NCBI GenBank assembly: GCA_028829895.1
Contig: CM054181.1
Span: 1,367,501 to 1,431,500, forward strand
DNA from: Sinotaia quadrata
Taxonomy: Eukaryota > Mollusca > Gastropoda > Architaenioglossa > Viviparidae
Reading direction: 5' to 3'
DNA: 64,000 nt
The position numbers and the translations under genes were made by a program. How positions within the stretch are numbered: the first letter of the stretch is position 1; every line of letters starts with the position of its first letter. Shown here in pieces: positions 28,471 through 59,267 of the stretch. Below the pieces are notes generated by a model. That model saw only the letters and a program-made list of their open reading frames with translations. It was not told the origin of the DNA and made no database searches.

Positions 28471-31400
28471 CAGTAACTGAAAGCAATGCAATTTCAAATT
28501 ATTTTGTTTATTAAATGTTATATTAGAACGAAATTATTCAGTGATGTTCTGTGTCAAATTTAATGAGCAAGCTTAATTAATAAAATTCTGCAGGAAACAG
28601 GCGACATTTACAGAATCTATCAACCTCTGAAAACTGTGTGTGTATGTGTGTGTGTGTGTGTGTTCTAGGTTCGACTTAGGTTTAACTCAATCAAGAGATA
28701 CCAACCAATATTGTTTATTGCTATAAATATCAAACTTTACACAACCACCTCTGCTACATGACCACAAGAATGTGTTTTTGTTAATTACGTCGATATCATT
28801 ATGTGGATAATATTCTTGCTACATCATACATGCTATAATAATAGGCTGCATAACTATTCTTGCTACATCATACATGCTATAATAATAGGCTGCATAACTA
28901 TTCTTGCTACATCATACATGCTATAATAATAGGCTGCATAAACCAAGAGATCGAATTGGTAGCACACCAAAAATTCTAGGCAAATTATTTGTTTTGTTGA
29001 TAATGTGATGATATCATTCTGCAAATGTATTCCTAAATCAGTAGTAAAATGCCACTATTTAAAACGCAAGCAGTCAATCACACACACTGCTGATGTAATA
29101 CTATTTAAAACGCAAGCGGTCAATCACACACACTGCTGATGTAATACTATTTAAAACGCAAGCGGTCAATCACACACACTGCTGATGTAATACTCGAGGC
29201 CCACGACCTTTCCTCTTTTGGTTTGGGTCAAACTAACCTTTGGCTTTGGGTCAAACTAACCTTTGGCTTTGCGAGGGGAAAATTCCTAGGCCATTCAGAC
29301 TCCAGGAGGCCGAGAGATGTTAGTGTCTTTACATAATTAATCGTCGTAATGGCGTTATCTTTGACGGACAATGACAGATTTGCATTTTGAATAATAAAAT
29401 GCTGCTTCAAAACTCATCGTTAATACTGTCGTTTGTTAATATTGCCTTGAAGTGTGTGCGTGCATACGTGAAGAGTGGGGGACTGTTGCTATTGTTTTGG
29501 GGGATGGGGGAGTTAAGCAAAGTTGCAGTGCAACGAACGAATTTGGGAACGTTTCTCTTCTCTTCCCAGCGCAAAGATACTGATACTATGTTTGTATGCT
29601 GACGTCAGATTCTAGTAATCTGCAAAGTGCATTTATTTCGCAGTAGAGATCAGACGCATCTGTATCACCACCATTACTCACACATAGCATTTGACATGAT
29701 TGCAGCAGTGCAGATTTTGGATGGCATTTCAAATTTAGAAATCTACATGTATACGTATCTTCAATTGTATTCAGGACGTTCCGTTAGAGTCTGCATCGTC
29801 ATGTCAAGCACTGCATCAAAGAAGTTGACCTGCATGCGTGTAGCTAGGTCCGAAATAGGCTCATCAGTGCATATTTCCCCGGTCATTTTCTTACGCTTTC
29901 TCAGAGTAATTTCTTTAAACCGTGGCTGAACGTCACACCTCAGCCAGTTGACGAGATTCATGGATTTTCGCTTCAAAACCATTTTCGCGCATTTCACTAA
30001 CAAAGTTAATAACATTCTTGTCATGTGCAAGCGCATTTCACTAACAAAGTTAATAACATGTGCAAGCGCATCATTTAGCGCACTTTGCCTGCCTTGCATA
30101 ACTTTCCTGGCACTTGTGCCAAAATTTCATGCCAAACAACTAAACAAAAGATTAATTTAAAATCGATATTTCTTATTATAGTCTGACTCTCAGAAACTGT
30201 GTTAGCATCACTCTCGTCATGATCTGTCAGTTCTTCTAAAGCATCAATTAACTGATTCAGTTGGGTATGAATTGCCTTAATGACATTGATTTGGACTTCC
30301 CAGCGAGTATCAGGTAACGGCTACAGTGTAAACAACGCAGATGCTTTTTGACGACATTCCATTGTTTTGTACTAGCACTGAAAAATGTATATATGCGCTG
30401 TACAACATAAGATGTTTTTTACATTCCATTGTTTTGTACTAGCACTGAAAAATGTATATATACGCTGTACAACATAAGATGTTTTTTACGACATTGTTTT
30501 GTACTAGCACTGAAAAATGTATATATGCGCTGTACAAAGTAAAAAAAAATCTTTGCTTCTACTGTGCAGTGTACTGCATCACTTACAACCAAATTAAGGC
30601 TGTGGTTGTAACACGGCAAATAAAGAGCTTTGGGATTTAATTTTGAAATCCTGCTTTGGACACCTTTATGTTTTCCTTTCATATTGCTACCATTATCGTA
30701 GCTCTGACCACGATAATTATCCAAAGATAAGCCAAAAAAAATCAATCTTTCCATCAAAATTTCATCAAATGTTTTCTCCAGTAGACGCCAGAGTGTTTGG
30801 AATGAATTCAAAAAAACGTTCCGCTATTGTTTTGTCACTCTGTTCGCCATGTTTATCATATCTGACTACAAGCGACCACTGTTCAGTGCGTGAACAATTA
30901 GGAGTTGAACCTAATAGAACACTGTAGTATTTCGCAGCTTTACACTCAGCCAAGATTTTCTGCTGGACTGCTTGCCCAAGCAATGAGATAAACTCATTTT
31001 GAACATCATGACTTAAGTAGTGCACATTTGCGCCTTCTGGATAAATTTGCTTCTGCTTTTGCAAGAAGTTCGATAATTCCTAAGAAATTAGAACCTCGAA
31101 AAGGCAAATTCCTTTCAGCCAAAAATAAAACATAATCCAAAAATACGACAAAGAAATTGTTGCCATTTCAAAGATTCATTTTCTGTCTGCCTTAATATCT
31201 GATTGACAGTTGCCTTATTGCAAGCCAAACGTTGTCGTAGTTCACAGCATCTGATTGACAATTGCCTTATTGCACGCCAAACACTGTCGTAGTTCACACC
31301 AACTGATAAAACAATCTTGGTGAGTACGACTGGATTCGTGAGCCTTTACATTTTTTGACAAGGACCGCCAGGCTGAAGTTCCTTTCACAAATATTTTGAT

Positions 31401-37400: not shown

Positions 37401-40400
37401 AACCCATGCTTGGTACACGCTTGGCAGCCATTTTGAACAAAGTTTTTTTGGTAGCCTGGCAAGTTTGGAGGCCAATGGCATGTTGACTGCTTGATCCTAC
37501 CTAATAAAGTGAATTGTGTGGCTGATTCTAATTAACTGTAGATTAAATAACTAGCTCCTACTGGAATTTTTGATGTGACCATGTGATAATACCACGAAAA
37601 CCGGTCGTCATTTGTCAAAGTACCATGTGGCTTCATGTGGTTTTCAAGAGCTTCCACATTAAAAATTTCACCTTTTTTTTTTTTTTTTTACTTAAATATA
37701 CATATAGATTGTATCTACAGGTTGACGAAAGGTTTTCTTTTTATCAATTATACTTTTTTAATTATTTTTTTTTCAAAAATACATCAGTTTTAATGTTATT
37801 ATTTGCCATTTCCCAACTTTCATGGCAGAGAGAATAAAACTAATTAATATAACTAAATTTCCTTGTGTCTCCCTGTACATAACACTACCTTGAAATTGAA
37901 TAAATGTGCAAAGTGTCATTCAGATATGACTGCTAGATTTTAAAAAAATCTTGTTCATAATATCTGATAAAATGCTAAATGGAAAAATGAAAAAAATGAA
38001 AATAAAAATTTCAAACTTGCATTAACTTAATTTAAAATGATTTACAATTATGATTTTCAGCTTAGCAAACAAAGTACAATGCCACTGAGCCCAGAAAAGC
38101 TTCTTAAAAGTTTCCTGTAGTATATGCAGATCACACATGCACGCACACATACACACACACAAACACACACATACACCTCAAGCTGAATTAGCTTGTCTTG
38201 CTGCCTCAGTTTTGCAGTATTCTGCTTGTCCTTTTAAAATGTAATCCTGTTTCTCACTCTCTCCTGCATTCTTGCAACTCACATTCTCTCCATATTGGCA
38301 CCAATGGTAAAGCAGAATCAAAGTTAACTTCCCTAACTGCAGTTATTGTAGCAAAACGAACTCACCTGGGTGATGCAAATTTATCTTTAGTATAGCCTGA
38401 CCAGATCAAGCTATGCTGGCATTCATTTGAATACTGTGTTCTGCCTGCAACACATCTACTGAGAAGTTGTTATATATAGGTTTTTATTGGACAAGGTGTT
38501 TTCAGAATGAAGTTGTTATATATAGGTTTTAATTAGACAAGATGTTTTCAGAACGAAGTTGTTTTATATAGGTTTATATATTGGACAAGATGTTTTCAGA
38601 ATGAAGTTGTTTTATATAGGTTTATATTGGACAAGATGTTTTCAGAATGAAGTTGTTTTATATAGGTTTATATTGGACAAGATGTTTTCAGAATGAAGTT
38701 GTTGTAAAGAAAAATGGAGAGGGAAATATATAGATATTAGACAAGATGTTTTCAGAGACTATTTGGTATAATACTCAGCGTTTTTATTCACATGTTGACA
38801 GTGATGAAGCAAATGCTGGAGGCAGATTAAATTTTAATGCAAACCCGGTTCCAAACTGGCAACAGATGCAGTCCAATCGTCGACGATATCAGCAGCTTGT
38901 TCGGCGTTTCTTCCACTATCAACAGGAACGTTTGCGAGGAGGATCACGAGCTTCAGGTATTTGAAAGGAGTTGTTAACTATTCTTTGTACTATTTATTAT
39001 TACACAGTAAACATTTGATGACGTGTACATGACTATGATGTGCAGTACAAAATGAAGGCAGTACATTTGACTGTTACCTTTGAATGTAGTTTCATTTGTG
39101 TAGTAGATACAACACTTTAATGGTAGTTCATTTTTAAGGTGCAGCGGAAGTTCGAGATGGAGAAACGAATGAAGGTGAGCGGCCTACTTCACCTGTGCAC
39201 GTTGATGCTTTGAACCAAGCTCGAGATTATGCCAGCTTTGTAACTCGCAATACCCATGATGGTGATTTGACTGGCTTCAATTACTTCCGACCATCAAGGT
39301 TTGTAAACATTTGAAGTAAACAAAACAGTCAGTTACAATGATTCTTGACCACTCAAAGTCTGTTTTCATAAAACATTTTCCACTTTGAATGCTACTTCAC
39401 ATAGGCTGCTTTTCTGCTTGAATTTGCATTTCGCATACAAGACAGTTACTTAATTTTGCGGCAGATATAGCTGTTACTATTATACATACTGCCAATCTTT
39501 TTCAGCCAAAGACTGACAGATGGTAGACATGTCACAGTCGTAAAATATTGTACAGCGATTCATAAGATTTCTCAAACAACTACTGCAGATGTGTCACAAT
39601 TATGAATTTGTTTAAAGTGGTTAATAAGTTTTCTCAAACAACTACTGCAGATGTGTCACAATTATAAATTTGTTTAAAGTGGTTCATAAGATTTCTCAGA
39701 CAAATATTAAAACATCTCACATTCATAAATTTGGAAGTGATTTATTATTAAATTTCTCACACAGCTGTTATAAACATGTCACAATCATAAATTTGGAAGT
39801 GATTTATTAAATTTCCCACACAGCTATTTGTAGACATGTCACAATTATAAAATTGAGTGAAGTGATTTATTATTGTCACAGGAAATGAGGGACAGAAATT
39901 TTATTTTATTTCATTTTAATAAACCGCTAACAAAACTAGTTGAAGTAACCCGAGTTTTGTTATTTTACGTATGTAGCATGTAACTTCCAGTAACGGTCAC
40001 CTAAGATCTCTTTAGTAGACAGACGTTCGTGACGCAGTGTGTGTTAAATATCATATTGAATATATATATTAGTTTATGAAGAATATGTATATTAAATAAA
40101 TTGGGACAACTGCGTAGTACGAGTCACATGTTGTTGACGAGAGAAATGGCCAGTGCGCATTAGAATTGACCACAGAAAAGCGTGCATCACGATTACCACT
40201 AAATATCCAAGGCAAAAATCATGTCACAGGACATAGCTTCTGGAAAGTTCTGGAGACCTTCAGTAAAGCTATATAAAGAGGCAAAAGGAAGATTTTACTC
40301 CCAATGTTGAAAACGTCGATTCGTCTGAAGCCAGTCTAACTTCACGTATGAATTATCTCATGTACAGAGATTTCATAAAGGAAAGCTGCAATAATCTCTT

Positions 40401-43400
40401 TCCATCCGTTTTCCATCCGTCTGATGCCATATATTGAGTAACGAGGCAAAATTACTCAGTATAACTTTTGGCAAAGTGGGGAGTTCACCGTCAAGAAAAA
40501 CCCATGCATGCGACGCTGGTTGTATGCAGTTAACGACACGAGGGACCAATTTTGTCATCCCCCCTGTCTGAGTTTGGTTGACACATCTATTCCGCTAATT
40601 GAGAGGCTAGCACCGTGATCGTCTCACAGACAATCCGGATTTCTACACTCAATGTAATGCGACGACACATCCCACTGGACGACTCTACCCGATAATGCTA
40701 AACGTCGTTGGGGGGTCCGTTTCCACGACAACCAACAAACAACGATAATTATCGAGGCTGACAACAGTCAGCTAAATTTCAGATTTCTCCCCAGTGATAA
40801 TCTGAAAGTGGTGCCTAGATTCTGCAGAATCTTCACCTGTAATGCGACGCCTCAATTGCGTCCTATCTTCACTTTGAAGTGCCGCTTATAAGTGACGTGT
40901 GAGCTTACGTCATCTCCTTGGAACTCTGACATTAATAGTGAGTAATAATTCGCATGGCTAACGCGCACATACTTAACTCTAGAACTCTAAGAAAATGAAC
41001 ACTATTATATCGTTTGCAAAATAAGAACTCTAATGTTAAAAGTAATGCTTATTTATATGTGAACTATTGTTAAAGCGGCCACATTTGCCGCATAAGAATT
41101 GTGTAATTAATTTTTATTTTATATTTTGAATTTCATCATTTTCATCTCCCCTTATTTCCCACAGAGTGTATGACATTGGAAAGTTGAATGAATGATTAAT
41201 CACTGTGCGAAAGAGTAGTACCCCTTTTAAATCGGGAAATAAATAACCTGATTTAAACATCTTTCAACTCTCTTGTTATTCATAGTTTTTGAGAGGGACG
41301 AAAGAATTTGTACTATTGTTTTGCACCGTTCGTCTGTTCGTCCATTTATTCACATTTATGATACACACTCACAACACACACCGCCAATAAAACGTTCCTT
41401 GGCATGACATTAATAAACTGGGCCCCACCCAAACATCAATGGAGTATGTCATGTGTGTCTATGTAACAACTTGACGCGACGTAGTACTGGCATACGTCAC
41501 CGGGCTTTTCTTGGAGGTGCACCGGAGCAGGCCAAAATTAGACTTCACCCCTTGCATCTCTAACTTCAGCTCGAGGTCGGCTTGTAACGAGCCCTCCCGT
41601 TTTGTAAACATCTGGTGACCACTGACCGTGATCTGACAAGGTAAATTGTGTTGTTGTAAGAAAGTGTCATCTCTTTTCTGCTTTTCTATCTCATCACCAT
41701 TATGCATTGTTTATTGCATGTTAGGGCTTTGCTATTGAGACTTAGGTGAACTGGATTTTGATAAGACTTATTATTGTGTTGAAATAAGTTTTATAATCTT
41801 TACGCTATTATCGTTAACGCGTACCGACTCGTGTTTAGACGTACATAGATCGATATTTTGTACGCTACATTAGCAACTGTTGTTTTGCTAATTTTGCTAA
41901 CTTTGCAAATTTGCGATTAGGATCTCTTTTATTCGTGTTTGTCATAATCCTAATCACGTGGTGGCTGGTGTTCATACGCACACCATTGCACCACTTTTGA
42001 CCGACAGAGGTCAAAATCCCGCGAATATTCTAAGTCATTTTATCCATACTCGTGATAACTAGCAATTTTAAAAATGGCCGAGCTAGTAAACGTGAAGAAA
42101 GAACTCATGGCTATGGGTAGAGAATTCGGGTATGAGAAAGCCGACCTAAAGAAATACGTGGATGAGGAGATAGCTAAATGGTATGTTGTGAAAGAAAATG
42201 AGGCGAAAGAGGTGAGAGAGCTAGAGGAAAAAAGATCGAAAGAGGCTATAGAGCTAGAAGATAAGAGACAGTTAGCTAAACAGCTAGAGATGCAAACTTT
42301 GAGAGAGCTAGAGGAGAAAAGAGCGAAAGAGGCGAGAGATTTTAAAGAGAAAGAAATCCAAGATATGAGAGAAATAGAGTTATTAAAGATTCAGTCAGCT
42401 AGGGATTTAGAAGATAAAAGGCAGGAAGTAGAAGAGAAAAAGCTTAAGTTAAAAGCTAGAGCACATCAGGAACAGCTTGAATTAGCTAAGCAAGAGGTAA
42501 CAGCTAGAGAGAAGTTGTTAGATGGGACTGCTAAGCAACAGGCCGAATTAAATAAACCCCGTACACGGCTAGCTTTCTTTAACCCTGAAGTCGAGACGAT
42601 TGACGAGTTTTTGACACGCTTTGACAGTTTCATTGCCAACTTTAATTACACTGACATTGAAAAGAAACAACAACTCGGTCAAATACTCCAAGGTGAAAGC
42701 TCGCGCGCATTTACTGATCTAACGCGCGATCCTGCTATTACTTATGCAGATCTCAAAACGGGTTTGATGCGTACTTTTCAATGTACAGCAGAAGGCTTTC
42801 GAAAAATGTTTAGGAGAGCCATACCCAAAGCAAATGACACCATGCAAGCCTTCGGTACCCGGTTACGCCATTATCTTGATAGATGGATTGATTTGACAGA
42901 CATCAGGAAGACATATGAGGGCCTATTTGATTTGATATTAAGAGATCAATTTCTCCATATTGCTCCGCCTGCAATGACGACATATTTGCAGCGAAATCCC
43001 CCGACTAACTTCTGTGATATGTTGAAGCTAGCAGACACGTATAATGATTACCCTGATCCGGTAATTACGAGGAGTGCACCACGCCCTCCTCTTACAAATC
43101 GGCAGAAGTATACACCGAAACTGAACCGACCGATGACGAAATCGGAAAAACCCGAACCGGTACAACGGACATATACTAAGTCACAAGACGTACGACGTCA
43201 CACACGTGACTCCCCACCTATGACATGTTACACTTGCAAAGGGAAGGGGCATAGTTCTCAGAACTGTCCCAGTCCACGTGATGTAAAAGTATGCACTGAA
43301 ACAGGTGCTACTCTAAAGACTCAACAGGCTACAGTAAACGGAAAAAGAGTCAAAATACTGGTCGATACAGGCGCGTCCATAAGCTGCATAAATGCTAAAC

Positions 43401-46400
43401 TTGTACGCCCAGAACAGTATCTAAGAGGTAGTGTCCGCATTCGATGTGTTATGGGACACCTTAGTACATGTCCAAGAGCCACTGTACATGTTACGTCATC
43501 CGTATTTTCCGGTACAGTCACCGCCGCAGTAATAAGAGACATGCAGTTCGGATTCATACTATCGCCCGGTCAGTGTGACGCACACACTGATGGCATCTAT
43601 CCTGTTCTCCCCGTAACCACTAGAGCACAACGGGAACGTAGTAAACAAGGACCCCCAGCTCTAAAGATAGTCGAGAATACATTCCCGCAGTTGACCCCAA
43701 GTCAACTCAGTCACCTGCAGCAGGAGGACAAAAGCTTGTCCTCATTGCTAAAGCTGGCACGGAAAAACACTATTACGTCCAGCAAGTACGCAACAATGAC
43801 GTATTTCCTGAAGGACGGGCTAGCGTTTCGGCGCACCGACTATAAGGAAAATGATACTAGAAGCACCACGTGTTTATTTACCCCTACACCACTCAGACCG
43901 CTGATTCTTAGCTTTGCACACGACTCAATCATGTCTGGACATCAGGGCGCACGGCGCACTGAGCAGCGAGTTCGCGAAGATTTTTTTTGGCCAGGCCTGA
44001 GTAGGGATGTTCGCTCGTACGTTCGTACATGTACGCAGTGTCAACAACATATTGACCGAGGGCGTGTCAGTCGAGTTCCCCTCGAGATAGTACCAACAGT
44101 AGAGGAACCATTCCTAAAAGTCGCAGTAGACATTATTGGCCCAATCATTCCCGCGGCCGAAGGAGGATATCGCTATATCCTAACAATCGTGGATTTTGCA
44201 ACACGATATCCAGAAGCAGTCGCATTAAAGGGCATCACAGCGATCGAAGTCGCAGACGCTTTAATAGACGTATTTTCTCGCACGGGCGTACCTCGAGAAA
44301 TATTGAGTGACCAGGGCACTCAATTCACCTCAGCAATGATGGCTGAAACAATGCGTCTACTAGCGTGTAAACAGTTGTTCTCATCACCATATCACGCTCA
44401 GTCTAATGGTGCCGTTGAACGTTTCAACGGTACAATAAAGAAAATGTTAATTAAAATGGCCTCGGAACAACCCGACCAGTGGCCGCGTTTTCTAGCACCA
44501 TTACTCTTCGCGTATCGCGAACTCCCACAAGAGAGTACCGGCTACTCACCGTTCCAACTACTATACGGCAGGCAACCTCGTGGTCCCCTTAAGCTAATAA
44601 AAGAAACATGGGTCAAGGGAGACACTGTGACCGATGGTAAAGATGTTCACACGTACGTAGCCGAACTACGTCAACGTCTGACCGAGACATGTCACTTAGC
44701 ACAGGAAAACATTCGCGAAAAACAACCCCGATACAAGCGAAATTTTGACCGTACTGCTGTGGAACGTGACCTCGAACCAGGTCAGCTCGTGTTACTCTTG
44801 CGGCCCACGCATAACAACCGCATGCAAATGCACTGGCGTGGACCCTACCGCGTTATTAAGCGTGTGAAGCAGAACGACTACAGCATACAGATAGGAAATA
44901 AGCAGAAAACCTATCACATAAATATGCTCAAGCGTTACTATGAACGCAGCGACGAACAGATACAAAACGTGAATGTCGCACTGATACAATTGGAAGACTC
45001 CAATTTCAGAACAGACATGATGTCCGCCGAAACCACGCCTAACCCCGCAGTTACAGTCGATCAAGTCGAGATTGACTCGAACTTAACTGTCGAACAGCGC
45101 GACGCAATGTCAAAACTCTTACACAGACACGCGCGCATATTCACCGACCAACCGGGCCACTCAGATTTGGTTGAACACCGCATCAAACTTTTAAGTGACA
45201 AACCGATACGCTTAAAACAGTACCCACAGAAATATGAGAGCACAAAGTACATAGCAGAACAGGTGCGTGAAATGCAAAAACAGGGCGTGATTGAACAGTC
45301 AATCTCCCCATATTCATCACCGGTCGTCTTAGTTAAAAAGAAAGACGGTACGCTTCGTTTTTGTGTGGACTACAGACAGTTAAATGAGATAACTGAATTC
45401 GATGCGGAACCTATCCCAAATCAGGACGAATTATTCGCAAAACTAACTAAGGCACATTACTTTTCAAAGTTTGACATGTGCAAAGGGTACTGGCAACTGT
45501 CAGTTGCTATTGACGACAGACCAAAAACAGCATTCCCAACTCCGCTAGGCTTATTTCAGTTTTGCCGACTACCGTTCGGACTAGCGAACGCACCCGCAAC
45601 ATTCGCGCGCTTCATGCGAAAATTACCGTTAGAGAGCGTTGACGCATTGAATTTCTTTGATGACATACTGGTAGCAACAGGAACATGGGACCAACATTTA
45701 TCCTCAGTGGGTGGTCTACTTGATATTCTCGAGCGCCATAAATTGACCGTGAAACCCTCCAAAGTACGCGCGGGCTTTCGGGAGATTGAGTTTCTTGGCC
45801 ATATTATAAGTGACGGACAAATAGGCCCTAATCTAGACAACTGCAGCCATTCGTGACATGACCTTACCGACTACAAAGAAACAGGTCAGGGCAGTTTTGG
45901 GGCTAGTGGGGTACTACCGAAAATTTGTCCCAAACTTCAGTACGCTTCTTAAACCACTGACGGACTTAACTGGAAACAAACAACCCACGAAAATACGATG
46001 GACGGCAGAGTGTAGCACCGCCCTCGAAAAAGTGAAGGACATCTTGACCAGTAAACCCGTCCTACAGTTACCAGACTTTGACAAGAGATTTATTGTCAGG
46101 ACCGACGCATCAGACGAAGGCCTCGGTGCCATACTTCTCCAAGAGACAGATGACGAATACCTACCGGTAGCATACGCTTCTAAGAAACTGTTAGATCGTG
46201 AGACGCGGTACTCTACGATTGAAAAAGAGTGCTTAGCAATCGTATGGGCACTCAAGAAATTTAGTGCTTATCTGTACTCTAAACCATTCATCCTGCAGTG
46301 CGATCATAAGCCGCTGACATATCTGCGCACTAGCATGTATGATAACGCTAGGCTAACTAGATGGACACTCCTGCTACAGGAGTATAGCTTCGTTGTCGAA

Positions 46401-49400
46401 CACATCGCGGGCAGAGAAAATTCGGGTGCCGATGCATTATCCCGGCATGCCATAACCGCGATATAAACAAGAGAGAGGATAGTCTCTCCACAGATGCGCA
46501 TATAATTCCTGTGGGGACTATCGTGTGAAATAAAATTTTTTTGTTCCTATTTGATTTCCACTCTGTGAGCTCCAATCAATTTTAAGAAGGGGGTTGTCAC
46601 AGGAAATGAGGGACAGAAATTTTATTTTATTTCATTTTAATAAACCGCTAACAAAACTAGTTGAAGTAACCCGAGTTTTGTTATTTTACGTATGTAGCAT
46701 GTAACTTCCAGTAACGGTCACCTAAGATCTCTTTAGTAGACAGACGTTCGTGACGCAGTGTGTGTTAAATATCATATTGAATATATATATTAGTTTATGA
46801 AGAATATGTATATTAAATAAATTGGGACAACTGCGTAGTACGAGTCACATGTTGTTGACGAGAGAAATGGCCAGTGCGCATTAGAATTGACCACAGAAAA
46901 GCGTGCATCACGATTACCACTAAATATCCAAGGCAAAAATCATGTCACAGGACATAGCTTCTGGAAAGTTCTGGAGACCTTCAGTAAAGCTATATAAAGA
47001 GGCAAAAGGAAGATTTTACTCCCAATGTTGAAAACGTCGATTCGTCTGAAGCCAGTCTAACTTCACGTATGAATTATCTCATGTACAGAGATTTCATAAA
47101 GGAAAGCTGCAATAATCTCTTTCCATCCGTTTTCCATCCGTCTGATGCCATATATTGAGTAACGAGGCAAAATTACTCAGTATAACTTTTGGCAAAGTGG
47201 GGAGTTCACCGTCAAGAAAAACCCATGCATGCGACGCTGGTTGTATGCAGTTAACGACACGAGGGACCAATTTTGTCATCCCCCCTGTCTGAGTTTGGTT
47301 GACACATCTATTCCGCTAATTGAGAGGCTAGCACCGTGATCGTCTCACAGACAATCCGGATTTCTACACTCAATGTAATGCGACGACACATCCCACTGGA
47401 CGACTCTACCCGATAATGCTAAACGTCGTTGGGGGGTCCGTTTCCACGACAACCAACAAACAACGATAATTATCGAGGCTGACAACAGTCAGCTAAATTT
47501 CAGATTTCTCCCCAGTGATAATCTGAAAGTGGTGCCTAGATTCTGCAGAATCTTCACCTGTAATGCGACGCCTCAATTGCGTCCTATCTTCACTTTGAAG
47601 TGCCGCTTATAAGTGACGTGTGAGCTTACGTCATCTCCTTGGAACTCTGACATTAATAGTGAGTAATAATTCGCACGGCTAACGCGCACATACTTAACTC
47701 TAGAACTCTAAGAAAATGAACACTATTATATCGTTTGCAAAATAAGAACTCTAATGTTAAAAGTAATGCTTATTTATATGTGAACTATTGTTAAAGCGGC
47801 CACATTTGCCGCATAAGAATTGTGTAATTAATTTTTATTTTATATTTTGAATTTCATCATTTTCATCTCCCCTTATTTCCCACAGAGTGTATGACATTGG
47901 AAAGTTGAATGAATGATTAATCACTGTGCGAAAGAGTAGTACCCCTTTTAAATCGGGAAATAAATAACCTGATTTAAACATCTTTCAACTCTCTTGTTAT
48001 TCATAGTTTTTGAGAGGGACGAAAGAATTGTACTATTGTTTTGCAGCGTTCGTCTGTTCGTCCATTTATTCACATTTATGATACACACTCACAACACACA
48101 CCGCCAATAAAACGTTCCTTGGCATGACATTAATAAAGTGGGCCCCACCCAAACATCAATGGAGTATGTCATGTGTGTCTATGTAACAACTTGACACGAC
48201 GTAGTACTGGCATACGTCACATGAGCTCTTCTTGGAGGTGCACCGGAGCAGGCCAAAAATAGACTTCACCCCTTGCATCTCTAACTTCAGCTCGGGGTCG
48301 GCTTGTAATGAGCCTCCCGTTTTGTGACAATTATATTTCTCAGTAACTAGTGCAGATATATTAGTTATAGAATTTGTGAAATGATTCACTAAATTTCTGA
48401 GATAGTTATTGCAGATATGACACAAAGGGTCTTAGGACACATAATAAACTTGTAAAGTGATTTCATTAAATTTCTCAGATAGTCATTGCATATATGACAC
48501 AAAGGGTCTTAGGACACATAATAAATAAACTTGTAAAGTGATTTCATTACATTTCTCAGATAGTCATTGCAGATATGACACAAAGGGTCTTAGGACACAT
48601 AATAAACTTGTAAAGTGATTTCATTACATTTCTCAGATAGTCATTGCAGATGTGACACAAAGTGTCTTAGGACACATAATAAACTTGTAAAGTGATTTCA
48701 TTACATTTCTCAGATAGTCATTGCAGATATGACACAAAGGGTCTTAGGACACATAATAAACTTGTAAAGTGATTTCATTACATTTCTCAGATAGTCATTG
48801 CAGATATGACACAAAGTGTCTTAGGACACATAATAAACTTGTAAAGTGATTTCATTACATTTCTCAGATAGTCATTGCAGATATGACACAAAGTGTCTTA
48901 GGACACAAACCATAAGATTGTGCGAAGCAGTTCATTGAATTTTAACATCAGACCTATGGCATGGAGAAAGAGTTAATCTGTGCAAAGTTGCTAATGTTTT
49001 TATTATACTAATATAGTTTAAACCTATAAATTATTGTTATACAGTGTATGTCCTTCAGAGAGTGTTTTTTTTTTAACCAGTAAACATCTCTTTTGTCAGC
49101 TGCATTTTCCTAGCTTACCCCACCTCTAACCAATTCTCCTTTCACACACACACACACATTCATCTATACATATGATAAAATAGTTACATCTATGGGTTTG
49201 TGCCACCTTAAGTAAAAAAAAAATACTGGACAGTTTTTGTTTGGACTTTTACTGTTGTATACCATAATGCCATAGAATCGAAATAGGCTGTATAACATCA
49301 CACTGTCCCTTAAGGTAGATCACCAGTAGAAGTAAAGCACATGTATGAAGGCTGTATAACATCACACTGTCCCTTAAGGTAGCTCACCAGTAGAAGTAAA

Positions 49401-52400
49401 GCACATGTGTGAAGGCTGTGGCCTTTATACCACATTTACAATATTTTCACCATTTCAGATTTCTTTACTTCATCTTTTGCAGATATGAATATGGGAATTA
49501 TAATCTCTATGGTGCAGTTCCACCTGGCACTCACAGTCCTCCACCTCGTCCAGGAGTTCACAGCCCCCCACCCCGTCCAGGTGCTCACAGCCCCCCTCCC
49601 CGTCCAGGAGTTCACAGTCCACCACCACGCTCAGAAGTTTCTTGTCCCAATCTGCGACCAAGCGCTTTCAGCTCTGCAACAGGTGGGCATGAGGCTGGTG
49701 GAACAGAAGTTTCTTGTCCCAATCTCCGACCAAGTGCTTTTAGCCCTACAACAGGTGGGCATGAGGCTGGTGGAACAGAAGCAGTAAGTTGTAAAATATG
49801 TAGTTTTAAAAGGCACAATACTTTTTCTGAGCATATATTTGGCCATTAGCACTCAAAGACCATGAATATGAGGGGGACCCATAATTGTTTGTTTTGAAAA
49901 TTCATTCCCTACATTTTTAATTTGCATCTGAATTAAGCTGCATATCAGAGTTGAATTTTAACTAGTAAAATGTTTGTAAACTAAGCTTACTCAAGTATAT
50001 ATTGGGTTGTTTTTGTTATTTAAATTATTTTAAATTATAAGTATTTTATTTTCATTTTATTATTTTAATTTAAGAAGAAAATTACTTTCTGTTTGTTATA
50101 TGGGGAAATATCAGTTTAATGAAGTACCACACACACACATATATACACTTCTATTAAAACTATATAGAGAGAGAGAGACATGTGGTACTTCATTAAACAA
50201 ACTGATATAAATATTAATATATGTCAGAGATAAACAAATAACTAAATATGAGGGGAAAAAGATCATTATTTTGAATGTGCTGCGTATTTAAAATAATGGT
50301 CTTTTCCCCCTCATTTTTAATTATTTGTTTATCTCTGACATATTAATATTTTAGCACTTCACTACCGAAAAAAATCAAATAGTAGCGATGTAAAAATTGT
50401 AGCAACATTAAAGGATGTATGTATTCAATAGCTTGGAAATTCCTAACTACAGATTCAAAACCTGTTTCACAGAAAACTGTCTTTAATTATTTGACATTTT
50501 CATTATTCATCATATTCATTTATTGTTCTAGAAATTCATCAGAGATACTTTTTGTCTAATTTACACTGACCCTCCATTCAAACAATTTGATTTTGCATAT
50601 CACAGAATATTAATATTTACTGTTGCCATGCATTTGCTTATGGCTGATACAGTATTGATTTCAATCTTTTTGCATTTACAAACCAAAATCATTTTTATTT
50701 TATTTTATTAGTCAAATTAACCTGGATGGGATGACTTGGAGCAGAAACATGTGAAACATGTGAAAAAATAAAAACAATGTTTGGGTTGAAACAATTTAAA
50801 ATATTGCAGGCCTTGATAATTCTCAAGAATATATGGCAGATCCTGTTAATTCTCAAGAATATATGGTGGTCTTGATATAGAAGAATATATGGCACATACC
50901 AACAATTCTCAAGAATATATGGCATGCACCAATAATTCTGATATATATATAATCCTGGTTAGAATTGTAAGATTTTTTTTTTTATTGAAGGCATTAAATA
51001 GAAGTGTATTTACATCAGTTTGTTGTTTCACCTTCAATATAGAACTATTTTAACTCATAGCTTAGTGTTCATAAACAGGTATTTTTGGGGGAAAATTGCC
51101 TAGAACTATTTTAACTCATAGCTTAGCATTCATAAACAGGTATTTTGGGGGAAAATTGCCTAGAACAGTGGTTTAAAATCAAAGCACGCTTCTTCATGAT
51201 GCCCTACATCTTTTTGGTAGTTGAAACTTATAATTTACATTAAACATTTTTATATTTACATTGTTGTTCAATAAGTATTCCATTTTTTTCTATATTCATG
51301 ACTGATGTGTTTTAGAGTTATAAAATTTGCAGTTCTAAAGTTTTGGTCATAAACTCAGATCACAAACTGTGTCATTTTAGTATTATTTCAAAAAAAACAA
51401 TTCAGAAATAAAAGAAAGTACCAAATTATTACAGTAAATATGGTCGATGACCTTACAGTTTTTAGAACCTGCCTCAGTCACAAAAAAATCCCTCTTCTAA
51501 TCTCTATGACTTTGTTTTGTGGCTTTTCTCATCTTGCTTGAAGGAGCTTCATACATTATATCACAAGTGGTATTAATGGACTTCCGCATATTCATTCTCA
51601 TAAGCATTAAATTCCATCCATTTGTCAGTGATTTTCTAACAGATGTAGGCATCCGGTTGTTTGATGAATAAGTTTTTGTAGTTGTTTTTAAATTTTTTTT
51701 TTCTGAATTGTTACCATGCATGTCTATATCCATAATGGATGGATTCATCTTGTCTTCTCATTCATTTACTCATTTTCTCACAAGAGGATATTGATGTATA
51801 GGGACTTGTAAATAAGGAAGATTAATCTTTGAGAAATTCTTTATTTCTGACAGTGTTTTGGTTTATTGTGGAGGCTTTGCATATCAGCAATAAGCATGAT
51901 GGAATGAAAGAAAAAAGAGATGTTAAGGAAATTAGCAGTGGAATATTTTTTTTAAATAGTAGATTTTTATTTTTTTTTAAATTTTTTTATTAAAAGAATA
52001 AATGAATGTATTAGATCTGTTAAGCATGTTACAAAGCTACTTATTAAAGGATTTGCATCTTTGCATCTTACTCCTTTTATTTAATTAGATCTGTTAAGCA
52101 TATTACAAAGCTACTTATTAATGGATTTACATCTTTGCATCTTACTCCTTTTATTTAATTAGATCTGTTAAGCATATTACAAAGCTACTTATTAATGGAT
52201 TTACATCTTTGCATCTTACTCCTTTTATTTAATTAGATCTGTTAAGCATATTACAAAGCTACTTAAACATTAATGGATTTACTTCTTTGCTCCTTTTATT
52301 TAATTTCCATTTGCATTTTGCAGACCCATTCCAGAAGCAGGCTACAGTCTCTGTCTGCTGGCACAGATTCAGTGCTGAATGCAAGGGAAGTTTTAGCAGC

Positions 52401-55400
52401 AAGGGTTGCCTTGACAGCTCGCAACATAAGGGATGCATTTACAGCAAGCAATGCAAGAGATCCCTTAACAGTTTGTGCTACAGAAGGTGATGTTCACAGA
52501 CAGGACATTGTTGACAGAGGGGCTTTGGAGAACACTTCAGCACAAGCCCTCGGCTCATCAGTGTCAGAGTCAGTAGCAAATCAAGACACAGCGATGAGCA
52601 GAAATTTATTTTCAGACTGTCCATCTACCTCAGTGCCTTGTGATAATAGAGATAGATTATTACGAGAACAGGCTTCTCAACAGTCTGGTACATTAGTGGC
52701 ACTACGATTGAGAAATAGTTTACAACAGGAACCCTCAGGAATTGTCTCCAGTGGCCAAGTCGCATCAGAAAGATTTACAGACAGTGATATGCAGTGTTTG
52801 GATACCTTGACCGCTAGGACTGGACTGGGTGAAATGGCTGCTGACCATTTTTCTGAGGACTCTGTTAACAGGGTTGCCTCACAAGCCTCATCAGATGCTA
52901 GTATTTTGGATCAGAGGACAGATTCACATTGTGTACCCAGTGGATCTAGTACAGGAACCCGAGCTCCTTCACTCAAACGCACTTATGCAACTGCATTTGG
53001 AGCTGCAGAACTGGAGACTCCAACTGCATCTTCTGTGATAGATAACTCTGCTTCTTCTTTTGTCATGGATAACCCTGCTTCATCTTCACAGCTCAATACT
53101 CTTTCCTCATCTGGTGCAAGATTATATCAAAGTGGTAATTCAGATCAGAGATCAGATGGTGTCCACTGGATGCCTGAAACAGAGATGGCATTAGTTTCTG
53201 CTTCCAGTGATGCTAGGACTAGAGTTGAAACAGGGAACCACCAACTTACCAATTCTGCTGCCTCTGGTACTTCTTCTAGAATCTCTGGTCTTTCACTTCA
53301 CAGACAGAGTTCCCAGTCAGGATCTGATGAATCCTCCCATCGTAACCCCAGCAGTGCCTCTCTCCTCCATTCTCGCCTCTTTGGCACCAGGGAGAGCATT
53401 GGCAGTAGTGCAAGCAGCAGTGTCACTACAGGAACTGCCCACCCCACATCACCAACTCGCAGCAGAACCTCCTCTGCACCCCCTTGCAGCCATGAGGGGC
53501 AAAACTCAGAAGGATGCCCCATCTGTGGCAATTTTAATATGGATCTTTTACGCTCAAGATCCTTAAATAGTTCTGCTTGGCGAGGGGCAGGGGCTGCAGG
53601 GCAACACCCTTGGTCATCTGCTCATGCATCTGCATCTGGCAGAACTTCATCAGCTTCCAGCAGCGTGCCCATGTTGCAGGTTGTAAGTGATTTGATGTCA
53701 CGTGTTGCGGTTCATTCAAGAAATGGTACTGGCATCATTGGAAGCCAGCAGGAAAGGACACAGAAAACAGATGGCACAAGTCAGACCCAGGGAGAACTGC
53801 ACCAACCTGAACATACAGACCAAGGTACAGATGTGTGTGGCTTGGCTCCACTTTGGCACAGATTGGATGAAAGTGAGTATGAGGGCTCCAGAGACACTGA
53901 GATGGAGGCTGTACCTATTGTTTCATCAGGTAAGCTTTTACTTTTATTATTTTTTTAAATTCTGTTTTAATTTAATTTAAAAACTGTGTTTAACAAAACT
54001 GTTATTCATGCACTAATAAATACATATTCACTCTTTATTATTTCTATTTTATAAAATCAAAATGATTTTGTATAATATTTTGTCAGTGTTTGTAAATTTG
54101 GTTTTGCTCAGTATTCACTTGTGGGGTTTTTTCAGTTTGTAATCCCGTCTTGATTGTTTTTAATTATATTTTATTATTTTTTATTAATCAGAAGTCCAAG
54201 AAGATGGAAGCATGCAAGCAACAATATCAAACTCCTCGGAACAGAAGCTTACATGTACTTGTGCCCACAATAGTCCATTGAACAAGGTTGGTGCCATTGC
54301 TGAACATGAAGTTACCAATGGTAATCTCACTACTCCTGACAACTTTTTGGCGGCGCAAGTCCATTGTCAGAGAGATGATCACAATATGTCTGCTTTACCT
54401 GCTTTGTCATCAGCCTTAGTCTCGCATATATCAGTTGAGAATTCTCATTCTGCCACGCCAACTGCAGCACAAACATCATTGCAGACAGCTGAATTGGGCT
54501 CAGTGCCTTTGTTGCTATCCCCCATGACTTCTGATTCCGCTTCATCATTGCAAAGCTCTTCATCATTGGTGTCAGGTCTTACAGAACACCTGGAGCAGCA
54601 GGTAAGTTCATGATCTTAATCACTATTTCATTTCAGGATCATTATTTATTCTAAACTAACGTTAACCTTACTGAAATAAATGTTGATACCTCTGACACCT
54701 ATGACACTGTTGACACCTCTGACACTGAGTACATTTGCATTAAATATTGTGTTTTATTTTCATAGTCTAAGTCAGGGTTTCTCAACCAAGGTTCCACAAA
54801 ACTTTTAAAAGGTAGCTAAAGGTTCCCTGAGAGATCGTGATTGGAAAAAAATAAGCTTCATAATAATTTTAATGCAGGGGTTCCCTGAGGCCTGAAAATT
54901 ATTTCAAGGATACCTCCAGGCTAAAAAGGTTGAGAAAGGCTGACCTAAGTAATGTATTAGGGCACTTTTAAGCTGTTTATCTTTTTTGAAAAAAATGTTG
55001 GCTAGCAACTGGTAAAAAGGTTGAGAAAGGCTGATCTAAGTGATGTATTAGGGAACTTTTAAGCTGTTCATCTCTTTTGAAAGAAATGTTGGCTAGAGAC
55101 TGGTATATGATGTCATCATCTTAGATCTTTTTCATAAACAGTCTTTTTGATGGATTAATTATCTTGTTAGGAGTTATACATGCCATGTGTTGGGATTTTA
55201 TCTGTGTATCTTGAACTCTGAGAACCGTCACTAAAAGAATGGAAAAGAAAAGAGACAGACCACCACCACATATTGGAAGGCAAAGAAACCAACAAAATGA
55301 TGTATAACATTGAAACACAGTCAGCAACAACAAAATGATGTATAACATTGAAATACAGTTGGCAACAACAAAATTATGTATAACATTGAAATACAGTTGG

Positions 55401-58400
55401 CAACAACAAAATGATGTATAACATTGAAACACAGTCAGCAACAACAAAATGATGTATAACATTGAAATACAGTTGGCAACAACAAAATGATGTATAATAT
55501 TGAAACACAGTCAGCAACAACAAAATTATGTATAACATTGAGTCAGCAACAACAAAATGATGTATAACATTGAGTCAGCAACAACAAAATGATGTATAAA
55601 ATATGATTGAAACACAGTCAGCAACAACAAAACAATATTCTCTACTTTCATATGGTTTTCTGAATTAGATCTTGTATATGTCATTTGCTTTTAAAAAAAA
55701 CAAAAAACTCCTTAATTAATAAATGAACGTGCCGAAATATAACTTATTTATTTCATTATTTCATTTATTTGATTTATTTCAGTTTCTGTTTGCACCAGAA
55801 CTCAGGAGTGCATTTATAACCATAGATTTAGCGGTGTCTAACTTGATTTCAGAAACTAGCCACCATTTAAGTGATTGAAAGGAATTAAATCAATCATTAT
55901 TATTATTCAGCCTCTTTCCATGACTTCTGTTTGACTTTCGGTTGTGATTCAAGGTCTCGGAATCTTACCAAGATTTGGGGGATCCAAGGTTTTACGGAGG
56001 ATGGGGGCACTTTCGAGGAGCACTGCTCTAAGTAGTGCAGCAAGTCTGTGGTTTCCAAGGATTTTATTCATTTATAATAATAATAATAATTATTATTATT
56101 ATAATTATTATTATTATACTGGTGTTGTTAATTATACTTTTATAGTAAATCAGCCTAAACCAAATTATAAAATGATACTTTCCAAAGAAGGATAATATTT
56201 TTTTGTATTGTTTATATATATATGGAATATAATATTATGTACAGCAACTTATTGTGCTTATATCTTGTAATAGATGAGTGTTTTTATTTTTGCAGGTTAG
56301 TGAACTAGACAGACGAATAAATGTTCTTCGAGACACATTCAATGAGCGAATGCGCATGTTGCATGAAGATCGCCAACGCCTCCTCTCCAGCTTACGGGTG
56401 CGAGTTTTTCAGTCTGGCAATGCTGCACGTACTCTCTCATACACACGCTGTTCATCTGTCCCACCCTACTATTCACCACCAGCAGTTGAAGAGAGCACAA
56501 CTACACCAGACTTCAGCGCACCAAGGCAGTCAGCCAACTTAAATTATCTTCCAGATTTTGATTCTAGTCAGAGACCAGGTTCGAGCTCCATGTTAAGACA
56601 TCAGCTACTGAGGCCGGACACCTCGTCCTCAGCTTCACACTTAGGTAGGTCTAGATTGCAGCCTGAAAATGTGTGGAATATACCATTAGAAACTTCTGGT
56701 GGTCCCACTGTTGTGTTTGGGACAGATTCAAATTCTACTGGACAATCCAGAACTAGTTTAGAAAATAGTGTAATGACTGGCATGGGCATGACTCCGGAAT
56801 CTGATAGAAACAGTTACACTTCTGAACCCAGTTCCAGTTTTGTTTCTGGGTCTAGTGCTAGTTCTAGAGGAGGACGGACTATTGAAGTTCTGGGTCCCTC
56901 AGGGGAAAGTGAGACAATCAGTTACAGAGAGCTTGCACGACGAATGGCCAATCGTGAGGATGTAACAGTGGTTGGTGAACACCGTCTTCGACAACCAGCA
57001 TCAGCTGTACCTCCAAATACTTCAGGTACAGCTCAGTAGTAGTTTTTTTTTACTTTATTTAATAACAGTGATAAAACTAAAGCAGAGTATGACGTGGTAG
57101 TAAAGTTTAACTAATAACAGTGATAAAAGTAAAGCAGAGTATGACATGGTAGTAAAGCTTATCTAATAACAGTGATAAAACTAAAGCAGAGTATAACGTG
57201 GTAGTAAAGCTTATCCTATAACAGTGATAAAACTAAAGTAGAGTATGACATGGTAGTAAAGCTTAACTATTAACAGTGATAAAACTAAAGCAGAGTATGA
57301 CGTGGTAGCAAAGCTTATCTAATAACAGTGATAAAACTAAAGCAGAGTATGACGTGGTAGTAAAGTTTATCTAATAACAATGATAAAAGTAAAACAGAGT
57401 ATGACGTGGTAGTAAAGCTTATCTAATAACAGTGATAAAAGTAAAGTAGAGTATGACGTGGTAGCAAAGCTTATCTAATAACATTAACAATGATAAAAGT
57501 AAAACAGAGTATGACATGGTAGTAAAGCTTATCTAATAACATTAACAGTGATAAAAGTAAAGTAGAGTATGACATGTTAGTAAAGCTTAATTAATAAAAA
57601 ATTGATAAAAGTAGAGTATGACATGGTAGTAAAACTTATCAAATAACAGTGATAAAAGTAAAACAGAGTATGACATGGTAGTAAAGCTTTTAGCTGCTAC
57701 AAGAGAGTTTATGGTGGTAGTAAATAAATTAGCTGATGAAATTTAATAACTGGATTATCAGGGTGGTAGTAAACGTTTTAGCTGCTTAAAGTAAAATTGA
57801 GTTTAGGCAAGCATTTAGCAGCTAACAATAAAAGATAGTTTAGGCTGTGGTAAAGTGTTTAGTAGCTAACAGTAAAAGATAGTTTAGGCTGTGGTAAAGT
57901 GTTTAGTAGCTAACAATAAAAGACAGTTTAGGCTGTGGTAAAGTGTTTAGTAGCCAACAATAAAAGACAGTTTAAGCTGTGGTAAAGTGTTTAGTAGCTA
58001 ACAGTAAAAGACAGTTTAGGCTGTGGTAAAGTGTTTAGTAGCTAACAGTAAAAGATAGTTTAGGCTGTGGTAAAGTGTTTAGTAGCTAACAGTAAAAGAT
58101 AGTTTAGGCTGTGGTAAAGTGTTTAGTAGCTAACAGTAAAAGATAGTTTAGGCTGTGATAAAGTATTTATCAGCTAACAGTAAAAGAGCGCATACATGGT
58201 AGTTAAGTGTTGAGCTGATTTTAAAAAAAAAAGAGTATGGGAGTTTGTAAAGTGTTTAACTGATAAAAGTTTGAGTAGCTAAGAAAAGAGTGCTGGTAAA
58301 GTGTTTAACTGATAAAAGTTTGAGTAGATAAGAAAAGAGTTTGTCTGCTGGTAAAGTGTTTAGCTAAGAAAAGAGTTTGTCTGCTGCTAAAGTGTTTAAC

Positions 58401-59267
58401 TAAGAAAAGAGTTTGTCTGCTGGTAAAGTGTTTAGCTAAGAAAAGAGTTTGTCTGCTGGTAAAGTGTTTAACTAAGAAAAGAGTTTGTCTGCTGGTAAAG
58501 TGTTTAGCTAAGAAAAGAGTTTGTCTGCTGGTAAAGTGTTTAGCTAAGAAAAGAGTTTGTCTGCTGCTAAAGTGTTTAACTAAGAAAAGAGTTTGTCTGC
58601 TGGTAAAGTGTTTAGCTAAGAAAAGAGTTTGTCTGCTGGTAAAGTGTTTAACTAAGAAAAGAGTTTGTCTGCTGGTAAAGTGTTTAGCTAAGAAAAGAGT
58701 TTGTCTGCTGGTAAAGTGTTTAGCTAAGAAAAGAGTTTGTCTGCTGCTAAAGTGTTTAACTAAGAAAAGAGTTTGTCTGCTGGTAAAGTGTTTAGCTAAG
58801 AAAAGAGTTTGTCTGCTAGTAAAGTGTTTAGCTAAGAAAAGAGTTTGTCTGCTGGTAAAGTGTTTAGCTAAGAAAAGAGTTTGTCTGCTAGTAAAGTGTT
58901 TAGGCTAGCTAAGAAAAGAGTTTGTCTGCTGGTAAAATGTTTAGCTAATAAAAGAGAAAATGCAAGGTAATAAAGGTTTTGGCTGATGTAAGAAAGTACA
59001 GATGGTAATCAAACTCAAAGTCTTATGTGATTAGTGAGAAACTGTACTCAGGCCACAAAATAGACCATATAGTCTCCAGAAGATAAGAAGTCATTAGAAA
59101 CAAAAACTGATAGTTTATAATACTGTAGTAAAACAGGAGTAAAAAAAAAAATGCTTATATAATTTCTGAAAGATTTGCTTGCAATTTTTTTTAAAATCAT
59201 GAAATGACACCTCACTTTCAGTATGTTTTAGTTGAACTTTGTATTGTCCTCTCTCCTTAGTTTATAT

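Follow-up and report, generated by a model that had tools for sequence, protein, structure and literature searches.

Does a gypsy-like retrotransposon of Sinotaia quadrata that encodes its integrase ahead of its reverse transcriptase (RT) represent a lineage with that domain order, or a single disordered copy? The question was raised by a 64,000-nt stretch of contig CM054181.1 (hereafter, the window), in which a first-pass annotation had proposed a Ty3/gypsy element with the swapped order known from Gmr1. This order is described in passages of PMC8220671, PMC6238403, PMC3587641 and PMC2774666, and the first two credit the Gmr1 clade to Goodwin and Poulter 2002. We conclude with high confidence that a Gmr1-type Ty3/gypsy LTR retrotransposon inserted recently into the window and is preserved there at full length. 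We infer the clade name from the domain order, the SCAN-type Gag and the hosts of the relatives, the trees having been built without a named Gmr1 sequence.

Anatomy of the element

The whole LTR retrotransposon occupies positions 39874-48329 (8,456 bp) of the window, on the plus strand. It is therefore larger than the interval first proposed (42074..46466), which does contain the two open reading frames. The 5′ LTR (39874..41610, 1,737 bp) and the 3′ LTR (46595..48329, 1,735 bp) both start with TGTCACA, and the 3′ LTR ends with the inverse of this, TGTGACA. The five bases ATTAT stand on both sides as an identical target-site duplication (39869..39873 and 48330..48334), and the polypurine tract AAGAAGGGGG (46584..46593) lies just 5′ of the 3′ LTR. 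Paired LTRs, target duplication and polypurine tract together identify an LTR retrotransposon. A putative primer-binding site, starting with TGG two bases past the 5′ LTR (41613..41630), is suggested by position; a search with a presumed primer-binding pattern found 0 matches, and no tRNA genes or Rfam families were found in the window. A scan of the LTR for bacterial promoters, uninformative on eukaryotic ones, yielded 5 against a mean of 5.5 in shuffled sequences.

Global alignment of the LTR pair gave 11 mismatches in 1,734 aligned bases (BLAST counted 10 mismatches and 3 gaps, an identity of 99.25%), a Jukes–Cantor distance of 0.0064. This corresponds to an insertion age of ∼0.25 million years at 1.3 × 10−8 per base and year, a rate borrowed from its application to Lamellibrachia in PMC8220671 and perhaps not that of the present host. 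Tandem arrays flank the element, with 62-bp units on the left (39525-39873) and 77-bp units on the right (48374-48907), the insertion site apparently being an array of this kind (a minisatellite). BLAST searches with the LTR and the internal region (E 1e-5) revealed no second copy elsewhere in the window.

The coding region reads, in order, Gag (SCAN-type capsid and CCHC knuckle), protease, integrase (HHCC, DD35E and GPY), RT and RNase H. The first open reading frame (42074..45856, frame 2, 1,260 amino acids) carries everything from Gag to RT. Its capsid domain (42791..43045) matches the SCAN model PF02023 (8.4e-07; 29.1 bits against a cut-off of 27). The zinc knuckle (43226..43267) is recognized by its motif, its match to PF00098 (0.001; 19.5 bits) falling just below the cut-off of 20.8. 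The aspartic protease region (43289..43573; PF13975, 1.2e-06) contains DTGA within LVDTGAS at 43358. The integrase begins with the HHCC zinc-binding domain (43883..44050; PF17921, Integrase_H2C2, 3.7e-21; H616/H623/C653/C656), followed by the catalytic core, whose profile match (44108..44395; PF00665, rve, 8.1e-12) ends just before the glutamate of DD35E, found in VERFNG at 44414. In the translation the catalytic residues are D686, D746 and E782, and exactly 35 residues separate D746 from E782. The C-terminal GPY module (44654..44908) was assigned from the motif WRGPYRV at 44834 and likeness to relatives; Pfam models of the integrase C-terminus gave no match. RT follows (45332..45808; PF00078, RVT_1, 1.6e-25), with NFFDD at 45650 (FFDD at 45653). 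RNase H occupies the second open reading frame (45858..46466), with a profile match to PF17917 (RT_RNaseH, 1.5e-39) at 46074-46385 and motifs from 46098. Integrase is thus certainly encoded 5′ of RT, on matches far beyond chance. Gypsy-type RT and RNase H, together with a GPY integrase (GPY by motif only), place the element in Ty3/gypsy. Pfam and motif analyses recovered every domain named in the first-pass annotation, in the order it gave.

The same annotation, which did not report the SCAN-type capsid, had read its domains in one frame; this holds from Gag to RT (frame 2) and fails for RNase H (frame 3). Comparison with a close relative, P0001 (a protein on a 4,581-bp ENA contig), located the change of frame in 45809..45857 (plus strand), between RT and RNase H: likeness to P0001 runs in frame 2 before this stretch and in frame 3 after it. 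The frameshift, around 45.84 kb, interrupts pol in the window copy, and P0001 is open through RNase H at that place. Because the frameshift separates RNase H from RT, the window copy is probably not autonomous now. As this was the one frameshift seen against P0001 and the LTRs have diverged so little, the description of the copy as nearly intact and recent stands.

From this anatomy a replication route can be proposed. The 5′ LTR would drive transcription into one RNA, to be read as a single Gag-Pol polyprotein that the element's own protease presumably cuts. RT and RNase H would make the cDNA, with priming expected from a tRNA and from the polypurine tract. The integrase, 5′ of RT in this lineage, would then have inserted the element into the minisatellite with a 5-bp duplication.

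Relatives with the same domain order

Relatives were sought with the integrase-RT stretch; 7,977 candidates were scored, of which 3,558 passed at E ≤ 0.001, and the best 120 of these form the list analysed here. All 120 have integrase first. The order integrase, GPY, RT is that of 119 of them, and P0002, from a newt, consists of two such units in tandem. When segments were counted under an 85% length rule, the listed relatives plus the window gave integrase-RT in 119 of 121 rows, the double P0002 in one and integrase only in one. P0001 is 95% identical to the window element over integrase-RT, with the same order, and 91% over the Gag-RT part; its RNase H lies in the RT frame.

Among these best 120 of 3,558, 26 carry a species name (hand count). 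Sixteen rows belong to nine mollusc species: Pecten maximus, Argopecten irradians, Mizuhopecten yessoensis, Ylistrum balloti, Saccostrea echinata, S. cucullata, Littorina saxatilis, Babylonia areolata and Gigantopelta aegis. The other 10 are echinoderms (7), a coral, Ciona and the newt. A SCAN domain is precomputed for 72 of the 120 listed relatives (hand count).

The contrast set was built from L001, the single usual-order element obtained in three scans of viral contigs with RT queries, two of which gave none. The best 120 of its 4,287 relatives were listed, and these rows carry the usual-order label through the search by which they were retrieved. With L001 itself, the 121 rows comprise 101 with RT-integrase, 19 in which RT or integrase segments are multiple and one with RT only; P0154, a multi-unit protein of this set, starts with integrase. 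SCAN is precomputed for 0 of the 120 listed L001 relatives (hand count). The catalytic xxDD motif of RT reads YLDD in 133 of 140 RT segments of the L001 relatives and is mixed in 120 integrase-first RT segments (YIDD 33, FIDD 27, FFDD 21, YVDD 13, others fewer).

Before tree building, redundancy was reduced by an identity criterion that spared rows with a species name. For the RT tree, 121 integrase-first segments were reduced to 24 rows and 141 other segments to 12 plus Ty3; for the integrase tree, 122 were reduced to 22 and 132 to 26, the last a preset limit. The contrast rows are kin of the one element L001 plus, in the RT tree only, Ty3; named references for Gmr1, mag and copia are absent from both trees. 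Agreement between the two trees had been set beforehand as a test of the first-pass annotation, and both put the window among the integrase-first rows. In the RT tree a branch supported at 92/86, a value that is not starred, and present in 93% of 200 bootstrap trees separates these rows from the others, Ty3 among them. In the integrase tree a branch supported at 97/92 (in 98% of bootstrap trees) sets them apart likewise. Several usual-order branches are long. Both enzymes of the window element therefore fall with integrase-first elements, against a narrow usual-order set.

Within that side, the window element and P0001 pair in both trees (100/100). Beyond P0001 the trees disagree: for RT, P0025 and P0096 join the window element (100/99), and in the integrase tree it lies in an open fork. 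In the RT tree P0025, a Littorina saxatilis protein that shares the order, is the second nearest row, at a path of 0.97 that makes it a member of another family; it is not next nearest in the integrase tree. Inner branches are open in 16 of 34 cases for RT and in 16 of 45 for integrase.

Alternative origins of the domain order

Integrase normally comes first in Ty1/copia elements, so domain order alone would fit that superfamily. The likelihood that this is such an element is nevertheless negligible. Its RT and RNase H pieces match RVT_1, RT_RNaseH and RT_RNaseH_2, with no match of the RT piece to any other RT model at E 0.01, and its integrase bears a GPY module. Among solved structures its RT is closest to 4ol8 (1.1e-35), which we take to be Ty3 RT, and to 7q5b (7.1e-35), a chain named Ty3-G; the aligned residues of the two are the same. 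A copia-type RT was accordingly considered and rejected, the RT piece having matched RVT_1 only (E 0.01) and Ty3 being among its best solved matches. Against the Gmr1-type Ty3/gypsy assignment stands the comparison of the integrase with solved structures, in which foamy-virus integrase came first (1.3e-20) and Ty3-G sixth (2.3e-17).

The order might instead be a private rearrangement, or an assembly artefact, of a gypsy element of the usual kind. We found nothing that speaks for this, the frameshift showing merely an imperfect copy, and we regard it as extremely improbable: LTRs, target duplication and polypurine tract bound one continuous body, and the order recurs in P0001, at the identity given above, and in the other listed relatives. 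An integrase-first order that arose independently, by convergence outside the Gmr1 clade, gains some room from trees that hold few usual-order lineages and lack a named Gmr1 reference. It still appears very unlikely, since RT and integrase fall into a single set, one that also contains relatives from Ciona, echinoderms, a coral and molluscs. The SCAN-type Gag present in 72 of the 120 listed relatives argues against it too: according to passages of PMC3424704, SCAN is a derivative of a Gmr1-like Gag. The domains, the order of all 120 listed relatives, the agreeing trees and this Gag thus support the Gmr1-type Ty3/gypsy assignment made at first pass.

Published elements and host distribution

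The window element shares with the Gmr1 clade an integrase placed before RT, a gypsy-type RT and RNase H, and a SCAN-type Gag. The fish Gmr elements described in PMC11117352 have one Gag-Pol frame, whereas that of the window copy is broken by the frameshift; four of them have LTRs of 337-518 bp, against 1.74 kb here (about 3–5 times longer). By description only, the element can also be likened to LGF3, a family from the annelid Lamellibrachia luymesi that the authors of PMC8220671 assign to the Gmr1 clade, and to the crustacean elements GyRex4, Gychoro2, GyMaja1 and GyLiva4, which the relevant passage of PMC3587641 calls the first Gmr1-related elements in protostomes.

The first-pass annotation had implied that a lophotrochozoan copy would extend the spread of Gmr1-like elements. 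That novelty is smaller than stated, given the earlier crustacean (PMC3587641, 2013) and annelid (PMC8220671, 2021) reports, as far as the passages of these papers go, and the integrase-first order in public proteins of nine mollusc species. The copy, and perhaps its family, is new; the kind of element is ordinary, and this one copy changes little. What matters is that encoding integrase first is shown to be a stable character of a broadly distributed gypsy lineage, rather than a peculiarity of deuterostomes.

In passages of PMC8556966, Gmr1 is among five clades present in several phyla, and the Lamellibrachia Gmr1 element belongs to a clade absent from that paper's own annelid analysis. In PMC6238403, a survey of molluscs, the table of clades lacks a row for Gmr1, and the main texts of the transposable-element papers PMC10294476 and PMC8905726 mention neither Gmr nor SCAN. 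The gypsy trees of PMC8556966 and PMC6238403 are described as built on RT/RNase H. Our results suggest that such elements may be listed under other clade names in surveys of molluscs and annelids, where Gmr1 is rarely or never reported. Since nine mollusc species have integrase-first relatives in the present set, the same order may characterize some MolGy or MolAn clades. We tentatively extend this, at slightly less than an even chance, to a common presence of integrase-first gypsy elements throughout Lophotrochozoa and in other invertebrates, hidden in surveys based on RT/RNase H only; some MolGy/MolAn clades of molluscs and annelids would then have the Gmr1 order, and the window element, with its long LTRs, would be one young family of theirs.

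Other features were seen in the window. Serine-rich open stretches at 52267-57036 (plus strand) resemble exons of a host gene. The two stretches scanned had no Pfam match; the joined stretches gave 7,982 scored candidates and none at E 0.001, low-complexity words being suspected of filling the candidate list; and one stretch compared with solved structures gave a chance-level match only (0.5). Repetitive sequence open on both strands lies at 58305-58908, and an inverted repeat with 58-nt arms, 91% complementary and 9 nt apart, at 50219-50343. On the minus strand, 30422-30823 resembles DUF4371, below the curated cut-off, a domain that we take to be of the kind found in hAT-type transposase genes.
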